Positions 1 through 6,476 of a stretch of 6,750 nt of DNA are shown here, in pieces. This DNA comes from Deltaproteobacteria bacterium (GTDB lineage Bacteria > Desulfobacterota > Syntrophia > Syntrophales > UBA5619), in assembly GCA_026388365.1 (NCBI GenBank), contig JAPLJW010000246.1:1-6750 (forward strand). Reading direction: 5' to 3'. Positions within the stretch are counted from its first letter, which is position 1. Every line of letters begins with the position of its first letter. Below the pieces are notes generated by a model. The model had not been told where the DNA came from and did not search any database. It saw only the letters and a program-made list of their open reading frames with translations. The position numbers were made by a program, and so were the translations under genes.

Positions 1-720
1 ATCGTCCGCGGACGGCATGTAGAGCTTGTGGGCGGGTTCGATCTGGCTCGGATGGATGAGCATCCTGCCCTCATACCCCATCTGGCGGCCTTCGAGGACG
101 CTCTTCTCGAAGGCCTCGACATTCTTGAAATCGACGAACGGGCAGTCGATGGCGACGCAGCCGGCGGCGCGGGCGGCCACGGCGGTATAGAACCGGCCAT
201 AAAGTTGTTCCTGCGCCTCGGAGGTCAGCTTCACCCTCATGTCCTTCGTGTAATCCACCGCCCCGAAGATCAGGGAGTTGACACGCTTGCTTGCGGTCGC
301 GGAGGCATAGGCGTTGACCATGCCCTTGGCCGTTTCGATGAGCAGTTGAATGGCAATGCCGCCCACCTTGAGGCCCCTTCTGCGCTCCAACTCTTCCAGT
401 TTCCAGTCGAGGCGCTTCACGTTGTCCGCCTCGCCGGTCTTGGCCAGGCAGACGCCGGACAGACCTTCATGGACAATCGCCTCGAGGTCGTCGTTCGTCA
501 TCAGGGTTTCCCAGTTGTTGATTCGGGAATAGATCTTGGATCCGCCGGTGCCGGCGAATTTCAGGTTTTCGCGGACGCATTCGCGCGCCTTTGGCTTTTC
601 GGCGGGGGGAACGGAGTCCTCCAGGTCCAGCGTGATGATATCCGCCGGAAATTCCGGCGCCTTGCCGACCATCTTTTCGTTGTTGCCCGGTACATAGAAT
701 ACGGATCTCATGACTGTCAT
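1..720 (-). CDS. CoA-ester lyase, CitE/malyl-CoA lyase (HpcH/HpaI) family, 3' end missing
   Basis: The frame is open from the ATG at 720 to the window edge, giving 240 residues; family members are usually about 290-320, so the C-terminus lies outside. These Mg-dependent TIM-barrel enzymes cleave or form beta-hydroxyacyl-CoA thioesters (malyl-CoA, citramalyl-CoA, citryl groups). Visible marks are RSVFYVPGNN (residues 5-14), LDLEDSV (31-37), the substrate-binding Arg in YSRIN (about 66), the metal-ligand Glu in IETAKG (129), the second acidic ligand in FGAVDYT (Asp156), and LIHPSQI near 221-227. An ATG at 711 would also fit, but AAAGGAG lies 8 nt before the 720 ATG. The gene starts 27 nt after the ligase alpha stop, so it is the fourth gene of that operon. 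Substrate is not readable from sequence; malyl-CoA or citramalyl-CoA are the best family-based guesses. Confidence 0.9.
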   Translation of the reverse strand, partial: MTVMRSVFYVPGNNEKMVGKAPEFPADIITLDLEDSVPPAEKPKARECVRENLKFAGTGGSKIYSRINNWETLMTNDDLEAIVHEGLSGVCLAKTGEADNVKRLDWKLEELERRRGLKVGGIAIQLLIETAKGMVNAYASATASKRVNSLIFGAVDYTKDMRVKLTSEAQEQLYGRFYTAVAARAAGCVAIDCPFVDFKNVEAFEKSVLEGRQMGYEGRMLIHPSQIEPAHKLYMPSADD

Positions 721-747
721 AATCGTTTCTCCTTTCGTGGTTGCGGG

Positions 748-1662
748 TTATTTCACCCTGAGTTTTCCATTTTTTTTAAGTTCCAGAAGCCTCTGCGGGA
801 TCTCGTTGGGATTGTCCACCACGATGATCCCCGCGTCCCTGAGCCGTGTAATCTTATCCTGTGTCGAACCGCTGCCGCGCTCGACAATCGCACTGGCATG
901 GGAGAACTTCATCCCGGCCGGCGCCCAGGCGCCGGAAACGTAAATCATGATCGGTTTGGTAAACTTTCCGGACTTCACCAACTGCGCCGCCTCTTCCTCG
1001 TGGGAACCGCCCATCTCGCCGAAGATGGCCACCGCATCCGTTTCGGGATCATCCTGGAACAGGGGAAGAATATCGGCGAAGGACATGCCGGTCACCGGTT
1101 CCGTTCCGACATGAATCACCGTGCTGACCCCGAGCCCTGCCCTCGCGATGACGTAGGGAAGGGTGCCCGACTGCCCGCCGCTGCGGGAGATGACCCCGAC
1201 GTGTCCCGGCACAAAATGCTGGTTGGAGAATTCGACCGAACCGCCCAGCCAGCCCAGGGCGCCGATCCCCGGGGAGTTGATCCCGATGGACCCCGGACCC
1301 AGGAGCATGGCGCCCTTCCGCTTCCCGTAGGCGACCATTTCGAGAATATCATACAAGGGGACGCGTTCGACCGGCATGACCGCCCATCTGATATCGGAGT
1401 CGAGCGCCTCGAAGACAGCCTCCTTCAGCCCCGTCCCGGGGATGAAGGTCACGGTGACATCGAAAAGACCTCGGTTCTTCACGGCATCCTTCATCGTATT
1501 GAAAACGGGGATCCCATCGACCTCCTCGCCGCCGCGGCCCGGCGTAACGCCCGCAACGACATTCGTCCCCAGGCGCCGCATGAATTTGGCGCGCATGGAG
1601 CCTTCCCTGCCCGTAATCCCCTGAATCACCACTTTCGTTGTTTTCGTCAGCAAGATAGCCAT
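748..1662 (-). CDS. Succinyl-CoA-synthetase-like acid-CoA ligase, alpha subunit (SucD/MtkB family, divergent)
   Basis: 304 residues, close to the usual 290-300. The alpha subunit of these heterodimeric ligases binds CoA and carries the phosphohistidine used to make an acyl-CoA from an acid and NTP. Visible marks are an N-terminal CoA-binding fold ([12 protein letters not shown] about 11-22, GVTPGRGG 38-45, PVFNT), ISRSG (158-162), [12 protein letters not shown] (214-225), and the phosphohistidine in SHASAI (His255, the position of the GHAGAI His in E. coli SucD). Oddities: the usual GPNCPG is GPGSIG (122-127); three residues (GQS) are inserted into the SRSGTL stretch; GIGGDP is HVGTEP. An in-frame ATG at 1812 lies inside the ferredoxin gene and its translation is junk-like; AAGGTGGTG before the ATG at 1662 decides the start. 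The gene follows the ferredoxin stop by 19 nt. True succinate-CoA ligase is possible, but malate- or another dicarboxylate-CoA ligase seems more likely beside a lyase. Confidence 0.9.
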
Positions 1663-1670
1663 ATTTTCAC

Positions 1671-1676
1671 CACCTT
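1671..1676 (-). promoter_or_regulatory. Ribosome binding site of ligase alpha gene
   Basis: AAGGTG lies 8 nt before the ATG at 1662 and selects that start over the in-frame ATG at 1812, which would overlap the ferredoxin gene by 131 bases. Confidence 0.7.
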
Positions 1677-1681
1677 CTCGG

Positions 1682-1957
1682 TCAGGAAATCCCGTGCTTC
1701 TTCCGGTACTCTTCCAGCCCCGGGGTGGGCGCTTCGATCCGGATGGCCCCCTTCCCCCTGAACCAGCACTCATATTCGCACGCCAGGCACTCCGTCCCGA
1801 GGCGCTTGGCATCCCCTTCCACCGCCGGTTTCCCCTCTTTCAGGATCAGCAGTCCGCGGGCGTAGGTCTTGCAGGCCGCAATGCAGGGCTTGGATTCGCA
1901 GGCCTGGCAGAGGCTTTCATCGATGATGATTTTGATCGTCTGTTCCTGAAATTCCAT
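1682..1957 (-). CDS. Small seven-cysteine ferredoxin-like protein between the two ligase subunits
   Basis: 91 residues, soluble, with no signal peptide or membrane segment. Cysteines at 17, 20, 25 and 29 form C-x2-C-x4-C-x3-C and those at 57, 60 and 64 form C-x2-C-x3-C. The order (IIIDESLCQAC, KPC, then CLACEYEC, then an IRIEAPTPG tail) recalls FixX-type ferredoxin-like proteins, but the second motif lacks the CxxxCP ending of a complete 2[4Fe-4S] ferredoxin. One [4Fe-4S] cluster is plausible and a second incomplete or unusual one is possible. GGGAGG lies 6 nt before the ATG, immediately after the beta-subunit stop (12 nt intergenic). Its place between beta and alpha ligase genes implies co-expression and perhaps a physical partnership. 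Its role (electron carrier, structural or regulatory subunit) is unknown. Confidence 0.85.
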   Translation of the reverse strand: MEFQEQTIKIIIDESLCQACESKPCIAACKTYARGLLILKEGKPAVEGDAKRLGTECLACEYECWFRGKGAIRIEAPTPGLEEYRKKHGIS

Positions 1958-1969
1958 GGGTGGCCTCCC

Positions 1970-3226
1970 TTACCCGTTTTTCTTCCGCTTGTATTCGAGA
2001 ACCATCTCTTTCATCTCTGCCGCAAGCCCTTCCGTGTCATAGACGCGGTCGCCGCCGTAGATGCGGATCCGGGCATTGAGATCCTTCGTTCCCTCCCGCA
2101 GGATTTCCAGGGACTCTTTCTCTTTGTTTCCGGCGAGCAGAAGGACGACAGGGAAACCGGGACGCTTGGGCAGCTCCTCCCGCAGGGCTTTGACGACCCC
2201 GTGGGCGTGGTGCCACTGCTCCTGGTTGGCCGCCATGAACCCGCCCAGCATGTAGCCGTCGATCCCCGGCAGGGAGAAGACCATTTTGGCCGCGCGATAG
2301 ACCTTGGAGGCCGGAGGGTTTCCGCTCGTATCGGCGAAGTTGGCCACCTTCATCCCCTGCTTGTTCAGACCATCGACGCCGAGCATCGCCCCGCCGCCGC
2401 CCATGCCATGGTAGCCGATCGTGCCGAAAACCTCGCGGTCCCGGATCTCGTTGTTCATCTCCGCAAAATAACAGGTTCCGCGGAGATCCTTTTCCTCCAC
2501 CCACCAGGCGATTCTGTCCAGTTCGGTGGGGGGCGTTGAAGCCTCGCGGGCGACCTCAATGCCCAGTTCCGGATGGCGGATGACGGCGGAGTCATCGATG
2601 GAGATGCGGCAGTCACCGGCGAGAACCTTTCCCTCCTTCGTGACGACCATGGGGTTGATTTCGATCAGTCGGGCGCCGTAGTTCTTGAAGGTTTCATAGA
2701 GGCCCAAGATCAATCGGGCGACCTGGTTGATGTGCCGGCTGGGAACCTTGAGGTCGTTGGCGAGATTGAGGGCGTCGTAGATTTTGAATCCCCGGATAAC
2801 ATCGACGTTCATGAGGGCGATCCGGTCGCCGGGAACCGATTCGATGTCCATGCCGCCTTCCGTGGAGAACATGACCACGGGACAACGCGCGTCCGCCTGG
2901 GCGTTGACGATGATCCCGGCGTAGTATTCCTTCTCGATCGCCAGCTTCTCCTCAACGAGGACCTTTTCCACCAGGAGGCCCTTGATGGTGGCGCCCAGCA
3001 GGGAGGCCGCAATCTTTTCGGCCTCCTCCGGCGTATCGGCGAATTTCACACCGCCGGCCTTCCCTCGTCCGCCCGCCCAGATCTGAACCTTGATAACCAC
3101 GGGCTTCCCGAGCTTCTCCGCAATTTTCCGCGCCTCCTTAGGCGTTCCAGCGACATCTCCCTGAGGAATCGGCATTCCGGCAATCTTGAACAACGCCTTA
3201 CCTTCATGTTCCTGCAAGCGAGCCAT
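1970..3226 (-). CDS. Succinyl-CoA-synthetase-like acid-CoA ligase, beta subunit (SucC/MtkA family, divergent)
   Basis: 418 residues, about 30 longer than E. coli SucC (388). The beta subunit binds the nucleotide through an N-terminal ATP-grasp fold and completes the active site with a C-terminal domain. Visible marks are LQEHEGKALF (4-13), the ATP-grasp Lys in VVIKVQ (46), GGRGKAGGVK (52-61), STEGGMDIE (121-129), LIEINPMVV (187-195, containing the Glu that faces the alpha phosphohistidine) and GDCRISIDDSA (204-214, metal site). The C-terminal domain (about 255-418) is much less like SucC: GTIGYHGMGGGGAM (268-281) replaces the usual GNIG...NGAGLAM, FADTSGNPP replaces FLDVGGGA, and LGGFMAANQ (327-335) stands where SucC has NIFGGI. 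This suggests a changed acid substrate. AGGAGG lies 5 nt before the ATG. It is the first gene of the operon, reading from the sigma54 and sigma70 promoters in the 491-bp gap upstream. Confidence 0.9.
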   Translation of the reverse strand: MARLQEHEGKALFKIAGMPIPQGDVAGTPKEARKIAEKLGKPVVIKVQIWAGGRGKAGGVKFADTPEEAEKIAASLLGATIKGLLVEKVLVEEKLAIEKEYYAGIIVNAQADARCPVVMFSTEGGMDIESVPGDRIALMNVDVIRGFKIYDALNLANDLKVPSRHINQVARLILGLYETFKNYGARLIEINPMVVTKEGKVLAGDCRISIDDSAVIRHPELGIEVAREASTPPTELDRIAWWVEEKDLRGTCYFAEMNNEIRDREVFGTIGYHGMGGGGAMLGVDGLNKQGMKVANFADTSGNPPASKVYRAAKMVFSLPGIDGYMLGGFMAANQEQWHHAHGVVKALREELPKRPGFPVVLLLAGNKEKESLEILREGTKDLNARIRIYGGDRVYDTEGLAAEMKEMVLEYKRKKNG

Positions 3227-3425: not shown

Positions 3426-3442
3426 AGCAATAGTGATGCCAA
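3426..3442 (-). promoter_or_regulatory. Predicted sigma54 (RpoN) -24/-12 promoter of the ligase/lyase operon
   Basis: On the minus strand TTGGCATCACTATTGCT has GG and GC separated by exactly 10 bp, as required by the sigma54 consensus TGGCAC-N5-TTGC; the TGGCA and TTGC blocks are both intact. The start would be near 3415, about 190 nt before the first ATG. A sigma54-dependent activator gene lies immediately upstream, which makes the match functionally coherent. Confidence 0.75.
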
Positions 3443-3717: not shown

Positions 3718-5853
3718 TTATTGAATATAATTATCTATTTTCCTTTTTTCCCGGATAAGCTTGTAACGAGAGATCCCCAAACGTTTCGCCGCCTCGGTCT
3801 TGTTTCCCCGGGTCATCTCCAGGATATTCTCAATGATCTTCCGTTTGCTGTCGTTGGCGATCCTCTCCGTAACCCGGGTAAAATCAATCCCCTCGGAAGA
3901 GAGCTGCGGCAGGATGTTGTCGATCCGGATGCGGAGTTTATCCTGATCGACCGTCGCCTTCATCTCCACCGGCAGGCTTTCGGCGGTGATCAGGGTCCCG
4001 TCATTGTGGAGGATCATGATCCGTTCGATGATGTTCTTCAGCTCGCGGACATTGCCCGGCCAGGGGTAGGCAAGCAGAATGCGCTCCGTATCCGCTGTGA
4101 ATCCCTGAACATTCTTTTTGAATTTCCGATTGAACTCTTCCACATAGTAATGGGCGAGGAGCAAAAGATCGTCGGTCCGCTCCCGGAGGGGCGGGATCAA
4201 AATCGGAACGACGCTAATCCGGTAAAAAAGATCTTCGCGGAATTCGCCTTCCGCCACCATCCGGTTCAGATCCCGGTTGGTGGTAAAGATGAAACGGACG
4301 TCGATGGGGATATTGTCGTTGCCGCCCAGACGGCGGATGTGACCGTCTTCCAGCATCCGCAGAAATTTGGCCTGGAGATGAATGCCCATGTCTCCGATTT
4401 CGTCCAAAAGGATCGTACCGCCTCTGGCATGCTCGAGCAGTCCGAGCTTTCTCTTTCTTGCATCGGTAAATGCGCCCGCCTCATAGCCGAAGAGTTCACT
4501 TTCTAAAAGCGTGCCGGGAATCGCGGCACAGTTGACGTCAACAAAAGGTTTCGCGTTTCGGTCGCTCTGCCGGTGGATCGCCCGGGCGATCAGCTCCTTC
4601 CCGGTGCCGCTTTCTCCCTGAATCAGAATGTTGGTGTTGTGTCCCGCCACTTCCTCGATCACATGAAATAGACTGAGCATCTTCTTCGATTTGCCGAGAA
4701 TGTTGTGAAATCCGAGGAGGATATCCTCACGCTCCTTGAGCTTCTCTACCTCCGTCTTGAGGGATTTCGCCTCCAGTGAAAGCGCAGAGTGCATGATGGC
4801 ATTGTCATACGATGTAGAGGCATTCTTGACCAAAATATCCAGAACATGGATCAGATCCTGGGAATAGCCTCCCTCCAGCTTCGCCAGATAAAGGGCGCCC
4901 TTGAACTTGTCCTTGACCTTCAGGGGAAGGGCGATCTCCGACAGGTAACCCGGGAAGACGGGTTCCATGGATGAGGCTGCGTCAGATCTCTGCCTGGTTA
5001 TAACGGTATTTGTGTTCAGGGCCTCCCGGATGATGGTCGGGCCGATCCGCTCTTCGCAAGCCCGGTGGTCATCGATACAAACCTTTTCCCCGTCGTTCAA
5101 GAGACAGCGGTTCTTTTTGATATCCAGGAAATAAACGAGGACCTTCTCCGACCGTGCGATCCGGAGGGCGCTCTTGACAAGGATCTCCAGGATATTGTTG
5201 GCCAGGACATAGCTTGCGTTCATCTCGGAGACGGCATCCTGGAGGTTCATGAGCTGCCGGATTTTCTCGGCGTTGGCCTCGAAAAGCCGCATGTTGTAGA
5301 TGATAACGCTCAGGGTGTTGGCATAGGTGACGAAGAGGTTGATCTCCTCCGGAAAGAATTGGGTCTCCTCCTTGAACCAGGCGGCGATGATTCCGATCAC
5401 CTCTTCCCCGATCTTCAGCGGAGCGCAAAAGTAGGAACCCCGGTCATAGATCTTCGTCAACCTGCGGTCCGTTTCCGTGATCCGGGGATCGGTCGCGGTC
5501 ACCTCCACGGCGATCGGCTGGCCGGATTTGGCGACCTTGGTCACGATACAATCATGCCGATTAATGTTGAGTGCCATGGCAAAGACCTGCTGTGCCTCTT
5601 CGGGGCTGTAATTTTTGACCACCTTGGCCTCAAGATTCTGTTTCGAGGCATCGAACAGGCGGATGATCCCCCGGTCAAAGCCGATGCCGTCCACCACCTC
5701 GTCGAGGATTTTCACCAGCATTTCATTTACGTTGGAGGGCGCGGTCAAAAAAGAACTCAGGCGGAAGATGCTCTGCAGCAGTTTATCCTTATCCAACATC
5801 AGAATGGAGGATACCCGCGAACCGTCATCCGTGATTTGTGATGATTGGGACAT
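3718..5853 (-). CDS. Sigma54-dependent transcriptional activator, GAF-GAF-AAA+-Fis HTH
   Basis: 711 residues, cytoplasmic. Two GAF-like sensor regions (about 27-190 and 205-355) are followed by a short charged helical linker (about 358-380), the AAA+ ATPase (about 384-620) and a Fis-type helix-turn-helix (about 670-708, NKTEAAKRLGISRYKLIREK). AAA+ marks: Walker A GESGTGKE (413-420), Walker B ILLDEIGD (481-488), sensor I TTNRDL (524-529), arginine-finger segment FREDLFYRI (538-546), WPGNVREL (598-605). The sigma54-contact loop reads GAFTDA (460-465) rather than the commoner GAFTGA. There is no receiver domain, so it probably senses a small ligand or redox/gas state through GAF, like FhlA-type activators. 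The frame extends to an ATG at 5904, but that extension translates a REP palindrome; AGGAGAAGGG precedes the ATG at 5853. The downstream sigma54 promoter and three dyads suggest it controls the ligase/lyase operon. Confidence 0.95.
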   Translation of the reverse strand: MSQSSQITDDGSRVSSILMLDKDKLLQSIFRLSSFLTAPSNVNEMLVKILDEVVDGIGFDRGIIRLFDASKQNLEAKVVKNYSPEEAQQVFAMALNINRHDCIVTKVAKSGQPIAVEVTATDPRITETDRRLTKIYDRGSYFCAPLKIGEEVIGIIAAWFKEETQFFPEEINLFVTYANTLSVIIYNMRLFEANAEKIRQLMNLQDAVSEMNASYVLANNILEILVKSALRIARSEKVLVYFLDIKKNRCLLNDGEKVCIDDHRACEERIGPTIIREALNTNTVITRQRSDAASSMEPVFPGYLSEIALPLKVKDKFKGALYLAKLEGGYSQDLIHVLDILVKNASTSYDNAIMHSALSLEAKSLKTEVEKLKEREDILLGFHNILGKSKKMLSLFHVIEEVAGHNTNILIQGESGTGKELIARAIHRQSDRNAKPFVDVNCAAIPGTLLESELFGYEAGAFTDARKRKLGLLEHARGGTILLDEIGDMGIHLQAKFLRMLEDGHIRRLGGNDNIPIDVRFIFTTNRDLNRMVAEGEFREDLFYRISVVPILIPPLRERTDDLLLLAHYYVEEFNRKFKKNVQGFTADTERILLAYPWPGNVRELKNIIERIMILHNDGTLITAESLPVEMKATVDQDKLRIRIDNILPQLSSEGIDFTRVTERIANDSKRKIIENILEMTRGNKTEAAKRLGISRYKLIREKRKIDNYIQ

Positions 5854-5864
5854 CAATAATAAAT

Positions 5865-5874
5865 CCCTTCTCCT
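5865..5874 (-). promoter_or_regulatory. Ribosome binding site of the sigma54 activator
   Basis: AGGAGAAGGG (minus strand) ends 11 nt before the ATG at 5853, somewhat far but the only good site here. The alternative ATG at 5904 has only a weak GGGGAC and begins within a REP palindrome. Confidence 0.5.
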
Positions 5875-5884
5875 GGTCTTGCGG

Positions 5885-5915
5885 ACGGCGACATGATGCC
5901 GCATCGTGTCCCCGT
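5885..5915. repeat. REP-like palindrome, copy A
   Basis: 31-bp palindrome with arms ACGGCGACA and TGTCCCCGT around GATGC-C-GCATC. It is identical to copy B at 6446-6476 except for one base (C for G at 5889), which breaks one arm pair. It sits between the cyclic-nucleotide gene and the activator gene. Confidence 0.8.
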
Positions 5916-6444: not shown

Positions 6445-6445
6445 G

Positions 6446-6476
6446 ACGGGGACATGATGCCGCATCGTGTCCCCGT
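6446..6476. repeat. REP-like palindrome, copy B
   Basis: 31-bp palindrome with perfect 9-bp arms ACGGGGACA and TGTCCCCGT, then one unpaired base on each side, then GATGC-C-GCATC. It lies between the channel-like gene and the cyclic-nucleotide gene. No T-tract follows, so it is not a standard terminator, though a transcript would fold strongly here. Confidence 0.85.

Follow-up and report, generated by a model that had tools for sequence, protein, structure and literature searches.

The small iron-sulfur-type protein encoded between the beta and alpha genes of a bacterial CoA ligase is, with good confidence, an integral third subunit, and the ligase belongs to a distinct ADP-forming class. This reading draws on comparative sequence evidence: a gene order that recurs across genomes, natural fusions of the small protein to the beta subunit, and a separate clade formed by the ligases linked to it. 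An iron-sulfur part is not known from the ADP-forming CoA ligases of the textbooks.

The operon and its small iron-sulfur-type protein

The window, that is, the whole analysed stretch of 6,750 nt, carries on its minus strand an operon in the order beta, FeS (the small iron-sulfur-type gene), alpha and a CitE/HpcH-type lyase. The features considered here were the following:

1..720, minus strand: CitE/malyl-CoA-lyase-like C-C lyase, truncated at the window edge
748..1662, minus strand: CoA-ligase alpha subunit, 304 aa, with a CoA-binding domain and the phosphohistidine loop FSHASAI
1663..1681, minus strand: gap between FeS and alpha, 19 nt, read from the sequence
1682..1957, minus strand: putative iron-sulfur-type third subunit (FeS), 91 aa, with seven cysteines and Gly54 where an eighth cysteine would be expected
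1958..1969, minus strand: gap between beta and FeS, 12 nt, read from the sequence, with a ribosome-binding-like AAGGGAGG overlapping the beta stop
1970..3226, minus strand: CoA-ligase beta subunit, 418 aa, with an ATP-grasp part and an ATP-citrate-lyase-like citrate-binding C-terminal part
3426..3441, minus strand: sigma-54 promoter-like site TGGCATCACTATTGCT, with one mismatch, some 200 nt ahead of beta
3718..5904, minus strand: GAF-sigma-54 activator gene (PF00158, 226.7 bits; GAF domains; HTH_8)

The beta subunit scored 180.8 bits against Pfam PF08442 and 33.3 bits against PF16114, over the cut-off of 26.8 for the latter. The alpha subunit was over the cut-offs of PF02629, PF13607 and PF00549, and in a motif alignment its phosphohistidine aligned with the histidine of other ligases. 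Alpha can also be read as a longer ORF reaching 1812; we placed its start at the ATG at 1662, because relatives align from residue 1 of that start. The lyase scored 130 bits against PF03328 (cut-off 25), which assigns it to the HpcH/HpaI fold. It reached 166 bits with TIGR01588, under the equivalog cut-off, and this truncated piece, as well as its relatives in L050 and L059, stayed under the cut-off of every curated lyase model. The initial annotation had described the small gene as lying 12 nt after beta and 19 nt before alpha and as encoding seven cysteines, and the coordinates and the translation of the 91-aa ORF agree with it on each point.

The seven cysteines occupy positions 17, 20, 25, 29, 57, 60 and 64 and form the motif C-x2-C-x4-C-x3-C followed by C-x2-C-x3-C. 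A search for homologues of the FeS protein returned 184 at E<=1e-3, 120 of which were listed, and among 118 aligned homologues each of the seven cysteines was invariant or at least 90% conserved. A lack of such conservation had been named beforehand as grounds for abandoning the proposal, and the alignment shows the opposite. Against three close relatives, the dN/dS of the FeS gene was 0.08–0.10, while that of alpha was 0.10–0.11 with the same three relatives and that of beta 0.10 in the one comparable pair. On the evidence of homologues, conserved cysteines and dN/dS, the FeS ORF is a real gene, beyond chance.

The second motif had been called incomplete, and it is. Position 54 is Gly in 120/120 listed separate homologues of the window protein and Cys in all 121 fused relatives (see below), which have eight cysteines; the motif is thus incomplete in the window's branch because Gly54 replaces a cysteine that the fused forms keep. 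Dicluster ferredoxins have eight ligand cysteines in two motifs, whereas the window protein has seven. It differs from these ferredoxins, including the [3Fe-4S] types, in lacking Cys54, in the x4 spacing of motif 1, in its C-terminal helix and in its fixed place in a ligase locus. In four other loci (L090, L117, L118 and L119), Asp occupies one of the positions presumed to bind cluster II (29 or 54), and in L090, L117 and L118 the spacing of motif 1 is altered as well.

The description of the protein as FixX-like, by contrast, did not survive the family searches. At E<=0.1, Pfam returned two generic 4Fe-4S models alone, Fer4_11 and Fer4_6, both under cut-off, and no match to the FixX or ETF-QO ferredoxin models. 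No curated Pfam or NCBIfam family was reached over its cut-off, and the names now given to the homologues go no further than hypothetical protein, ferredoxin or another Fe-S protein. The predicted fold is ferredoxin-like (best model pLDDT 92.9; five models, 74.1–92.9). The sole sequence-profile match of the family in the PDB, to a Duffy binding protein, was rejected as a chance match (E 0.26). On viral contigs, 36 pattern matches included no relative, and a search of plasmids yielded no match.

From the cysteine pattern we infer that the FeS protein binds clusters. One complete [4Fe-4S] site would be formed by C17, C20, C25 and C64. A second site would have the three cysteines C29, C57 and C60, with Gly54 in place of the fourth ligand, and would probably hold a labile [4Fe-4S]/[3Fe-4S] cluster.

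Upstream of the operon, 0.09 sigma-54-like sites were expected in the window, and 17/200 window shuffles contained one. Perfect sigma-54 sites lay upstream of beta in 6/69 relatives (L004–L007, L010 and L011), and the other 63 had none at this strictness; simple shuffling gave an expectation of 0.26 in the relatives with up to one mismatch allowed. The GAF-sigma-54 activator is a candidate regulator of the operon. A 32-nt near-palindromic repeat occurs in two copies, at 5884–5915 and 6445–6476, each lying where a gene seems to begin, the sigma-54 activator in one case and a cNMP-binding gene in the other; the true starts of both genes probably lie downstream of the repeat. Its 27-nt core had no exact match in 156 loci.

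Gene order, natural fusions and trees

A GTDB scan gave 109 relatives, and the best 80 of the 109 loci were examined. Alpha was downstream of FeS in 80/80 of these loci and beta was upstream in 77, in 70 of them over nearly its full length. The three loci without beta begin at contig ends, within 195 nt of the FeS gene, and in L003 beta is visible as its last stretch alone. A lyase gene followed alpha in 76 of the 80 loci; the four without it were L007 (contig end), L032, L051 and L073. The gap between FeS and alpha exceeded 60 nt in 12/79 loci. Two apparent fusions were discarded: L071, though kept in the set of 80, holds nothing but fragments of beta, FeS and alpha, and the apparent join of FeS and alpha in L068/L115 consists of N letters in the scaffold. 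The hosts of the GTDB loci include Syntrophaceae, Desulfofustis glycolicus, Desulfospira, Moorella and Desulfosporosinus, together with MAGs labelled Dehalococcoidia, Actinobacteria, Thiobacillaceae and Nitrososphaeria, labels that may be wrong. The labels of the genomes and MAGs that carry the clade of FeS-linked ligases span at least five bacterial phyla as well as archaea.

Genome searches covered 201 genomes of the phylum of the Dehalococcoidia MAG, 200 of that of the archaeal MAG, 395 of that of Desulfofustis and 199 of that of Moorella. Positive genomes numbered 1/201, 6/200, 22/395 and 8/199, respectively, with 41 FeS matches altogether. All 41 lay between or within beta and alpha, and none was a free copy. 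These matches are not independent of the GTDB scan, as 23 are places among the 80 loci and 18 are new. The sole match in the phylum of the Dehalococcoidia MAG was the centre genome itself. The distribution of the cassette is patchy: it was found in 7/41 genomes of the Desulfofustis family, and in 13/198 and 22/395 genomes of its phylum. Some genomes (G216, G646 and G839) contain more than one FeS-ligase cassette, two or three, drawn from different branches. A search for the order beta, ferredoxin, alpha across genomes had been proposed, with the proviso that an order confined to one genome would undo the idea; the order recurs, in the 80 loci of 109 and in the 18 new places, and is common to many loci.

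In G216, the FeS domain lies within the same open frame as beta. We searched for further fusions with the FeS domain of G216 alone as query, the lengths of candidates being set by the whole protein. This gave 135 matches at E<=1e-3 to the FeS domain in fusion-length proteins; among the 120 listed, nearly all had about 515 aa and beta-type Pfam domains, with the FeS domain at the C-terminus of beta. In the archaeal phylum, such fusions were present in three genomes (L090, L092 and L093). The predicted structure of a natural fusion, as a single chain, had a pTM of 0.83 and a low-confidence linker, and its pLDDT and pTM say nothing on docking. In a structure search, the beta part of this model matched succinyl-CoA synthetases, and none of the 50 structure matches listed for the fusion was described as an Fe-S ligase chain.

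A beta tree was built from 68 chosen proteins, namely 18 of the 120 listed fusions and, for the rest, proteins of the loci. All 47 FeS-linked rows fell into one clade (99/95). The fused state needed two changes on this tree, and well-supported branches force two, so that the tree requires at least two fusion or fission events. A quick alpha tree of 45 rows likewise placed the FeS-linked rows in one group (SH-aLRT 97), with the caveat that L142 and L081, both long branches, may have been joined wrongly.

A free ferredoxin that is merely co-transcribed with the ligase, and that carries electrons from a glycolate oxidase or to 2-oxoacid oxidoreductases, would suit the ferredoxin-like predicted fold and the GlcD-like genes found in 36/63 loci with 4.5 kb of downstream sequence. 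We consider it very improbable, as every examined match is either flanked by beta and alpha or joined to beta in one protein, the fused group is large, and 0/41 genome-search matches are free copies. The FeS part is also present in two citryl-CoA-lyase cassettes, L147 and L156, in which tblastn found no relative of GlcD, GlcF or malic enzyme. Since fusion of beta and FeS has occurred repeatedly and the order beta, FeS, alpha is otherwise fixed, the three are very probably parts of one enzyme. Thus, the suggestion in the initial annotation of a three-part complex gains strong support from comparative genomics, through the order in 80 loci, the 41/41 matches, and beta-FeS fusions involving at least two events.

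We infer a physical complex in which beta would supply the ATP-grasp and acid-binding parts and alpha the phosphohistidine and the CoA site. Because the natural fusions join FeS to the end of beta, the FeS subunit would dock on the C-terminal portion of beta and lie close to alpha. The class would usually be paired with a downstream C-C lyase.

Relation to known CoA ligases

In 198 genomes, 14/14 beta matches above 300 bits had an FeS domain adjacent or fused, and in the 200 genomes of the archaeal phylum 5/5 such matches carried it beside or in them. Among the 14, one beta gene of the FeS clade (G075:C108:4498-5736) has a single in-frame TAG, which may reflect an error, decay or recoding. In the next beta match, L082 (258 bits), the stretch between beta and alpha holds a short, broken FeS-like frame, in which the first half of an FeS-like protein can be read (480–960, minus strand). 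In this locus the FeS part may be dispensable, it may have decayed, or the assembly may be wrong; L082 was left out of the trees and of the tally of cysteine variants. Among the lower beta matches, 14 loci were inspected. In 12 of them (L083, L084, L128, L129, L131–L133 and L135–L139) alpha adjoined beta, and the gaps, from -4 to 141 nt, left no room for an FeS gene. L083 and L084 were rejected as FeS-type, being SucCD of the classical type, and served as comparison rows. Of the remaining two, L130 has 1164 nt before alpha with no FeS match, and in L134 no alpha match was found. As a control, we used 7 MtkA loci over the curated cut-off; in 7/7 alpha followed beta by 10–25 nt, and therefore there was no room for an FeS gene.

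The window ligase combines an ATP-grasp beta, a CoA-binding alpha and a phosphohistidine, which places it in the ADP-forming CoA ligase superfamily, with the same fold and layout as SucCD. Unlike SucCD, it belongs to a separate clade and has the putative third subunit. The alpha loop is of the SRSGGQ type in FeS-linked ligases and SRSGTLTYE in SucCD; a few FeS-less archaeal-type ligases have SRSGGM. This alpha loop and the beta loops of the HGIGGGGAM and DTSGNP types lie near the active site, and all three set the FeS-linked ligases apart from SucCD and MtkAB; beta further differs from SucCD in its longer C-terminus.

The best general matches of the window ligase are succinate-CoA ligases, as would be expected of an ordinary TCA-cycle enzyme whose two subunit genes happen to flank an unrelated small gene. 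That reading is most improbable. Both subunits scored far under the curated SucCD equivalog cut-offs (NF001913 and NF004230; beta 247.1 vs 370, alpha 263.9 vs 336), the FeS-linked ligases form their own clade, a lyase gene follows in 76/80 loci, and the hosts G002, G107, G130, G216 and G226 have a beta of another clade elsewhere in the genome.

MtkAB of serine-cycle methylotrophs catalyzes the reaction that is probable for the window ligase, and a malyl-CoA-lyase-type gene was near in 4/7 MtkA loci with short flanks. However, MtkA groups with classical SucC in the beta tree, apart from the FeS-linked clade, 0/7 MtkA loci have an FeS gene between the subunits, and the window beta missed the MtkAB model NF010647 (172.2 bits vs a cut-off of 604). 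Citryl-CoA synthetase (Hydrogenobacter, PDB 6hxq) and ATP-citrate lyase share with the window system the logic of ligase plus lyase and the citrate-binding domain match. An FeS domain is not apparent in their solved chains, nor in the other solved structural relatives of the ligase, as judged from names, lengths and coverage. The window beta was nearer to the Thermus succinyl-CoA synthetase (223 bits) than to the side of citryl-CoA synthetase and ATP-citrate lyase (157.5 bits).

In a full-text literature search, no listed paper appeared, from its title and the start of its abstract, to describe an iron-sulfur subunit of such a ligase. As most subscription papers lay outside its scope, this is weak evidence of novelty, on which the distinct FeS-linked clade of ADP-forming CoA ligases appears new.

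Candidate substrate and role of the clusters

The alignments show that the phosphohistidine and the ATP-grasp motifs are kept in alpha and beta; therefore, the ligase should form an acyl-CoA with ATP. Among the 63 loci with 4.5 kb of downstream sequence, a GlcD-like gene was present in 36, a malic-enzyme-like gene in 11, either in 45 and neither in 18. Neighbours were counted anywhere in the locus, and a gene was taken as GlcD-like when it shared at least 48% identity with either of two queries. In Desulfofustis glycolicus, GlcD and a TRAP permease lie beside the cassette, both over curated cut-offs. Three Moorella loci (L059, L061 and L065) have a malic-enzyme-like gene after the cassette, whose product is under the cut-offs of the models it matched. 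The nearest relative, L001, has GlcD-like genes, under the GlcD cut-off. In L050 and L046 (about 8140–9290), two genes lie between the lyase and GlcD, and relatives counted by tblastn show the same in several sulfate reducers; we take one to be methyltransferase-like and the other, a small gene, to be MTH1187-like.

In PMC6313629, D. glycolicus, Syntrophobotulus glycolicus, Moorella sp. HUC22-1 and M. thermoacetica figure as users of the malyl-CoA pathway in anaerobic glycolate conversion, and PMC8092247 gives S. glycolicus and Moorella sp. HUC22-1 a malyl-CoA pathway with glyoxylate. Because of the GlcD and malic-enzyme neighbours and the hosts that use this pathway, we regard malate/malyl-CoA as the probable substrate pair of the window's branch. 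The ligase would interconvert malate, ATP and CoA with malyl-CoA, and the CitE-like lyase would interconvert malyl-CoA with acetyl-CoA and glyoxylate. Run towards malate, the two steps would yield ATP during anaerobic oxidation of glycolate or glyoxylate.

Since 18/63 loci have neither neighbour, the substrate may vary. CitE/RipC-type lyases accept several hydroxyacyl-CoAs, and the same three-part enzyme could act in the window on citramalate, citrate or another hydroxy-acid. That beta exceeds the cut-off of the Pfam model for the ATP-citrate-lyase citrate-binding domain counts for this alternative, as do related cassettes with other neighbours. The sister cassette L147 (2577–7249) holds fumarase-family genes, a fused beta-FeS, alpha and a citryl-CoA lyase over cut-off; L156 (6625–11536) holds fumarase-family genes, separate beta and FeS, alpha and a lyase 58% identical to that of L147. 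The two suggest a citryl-CoA (or citramalyl-CoA) version of the same enzyme. An MmgE/PrpD gene accompanies the cassette in L140 of the archaeal phylum, and an aconitase-family gene in L142; L141 has a TRAP DctM gene. For the window itself we nevertheless hold a substrate other than malate to be unlikely, given the GlcD-like or malic-enzyme-like genes near 45/63 loci, including L001. Hydroxy-di/tricarboxylates are the thread that links the cassettes, and for the most part they feed a C-C lyase.

The ligase reaction needs no electrons, and we therefore propose that the clusters would hold the beta-FeS-alpha complex together and would let its activity follow the redox state. Redox gating or sensing by the FeS subunit is conceivable, and we put it forward tentatively, giving it slightly more weight than a purely structural role and leaving the remainder to other functions. 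The clusters might instead be purely structural, stabilizing the assembly of beta and alpha with no redox or regulatory role, a somewhat doubtful reading. It is in keeping with a reaction that is not a redox reaction, with the nearly invariant ligands of cluster I, and with the fixing of the domain to beta by fusion in a large group. It accounts less readily for the strict, lineage-specific loss of a single ligand (Gly54 in the listed separate forms, Cys54 in the fused ones), which hints at tuning of cluster II, and for the Asp at 29 or 54 in four other loci, which suggests tuning of the site too. Returning to the redox proposal, a more specific and rather speculative version of it is a redox-gated class of ATP-forming CoA ligases in bacteria and archaea, whose site-differentiated cluster would sense redox or bind the hydroxy-acid at an open iron, with the replaced ligand being Gly here and Asp elsewhere.

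In conclusion, a whole clade of ADP-forming CoA ligases carries an FeS part, either as a subunit of its own or fused to beta. The cassette is a strong candidate for the gene set of the malyl-CoA route of anaerobic glycolate oxidation, a route known from physiology. If true, a redox-gated class would tie substrate-level phosphorylation in anaerobes directly to electron balance, and through the cassette, the question whether redox state controls this kind of phosphorylation can be put to the test in syntrophs, sulfate reducers and acetogens.
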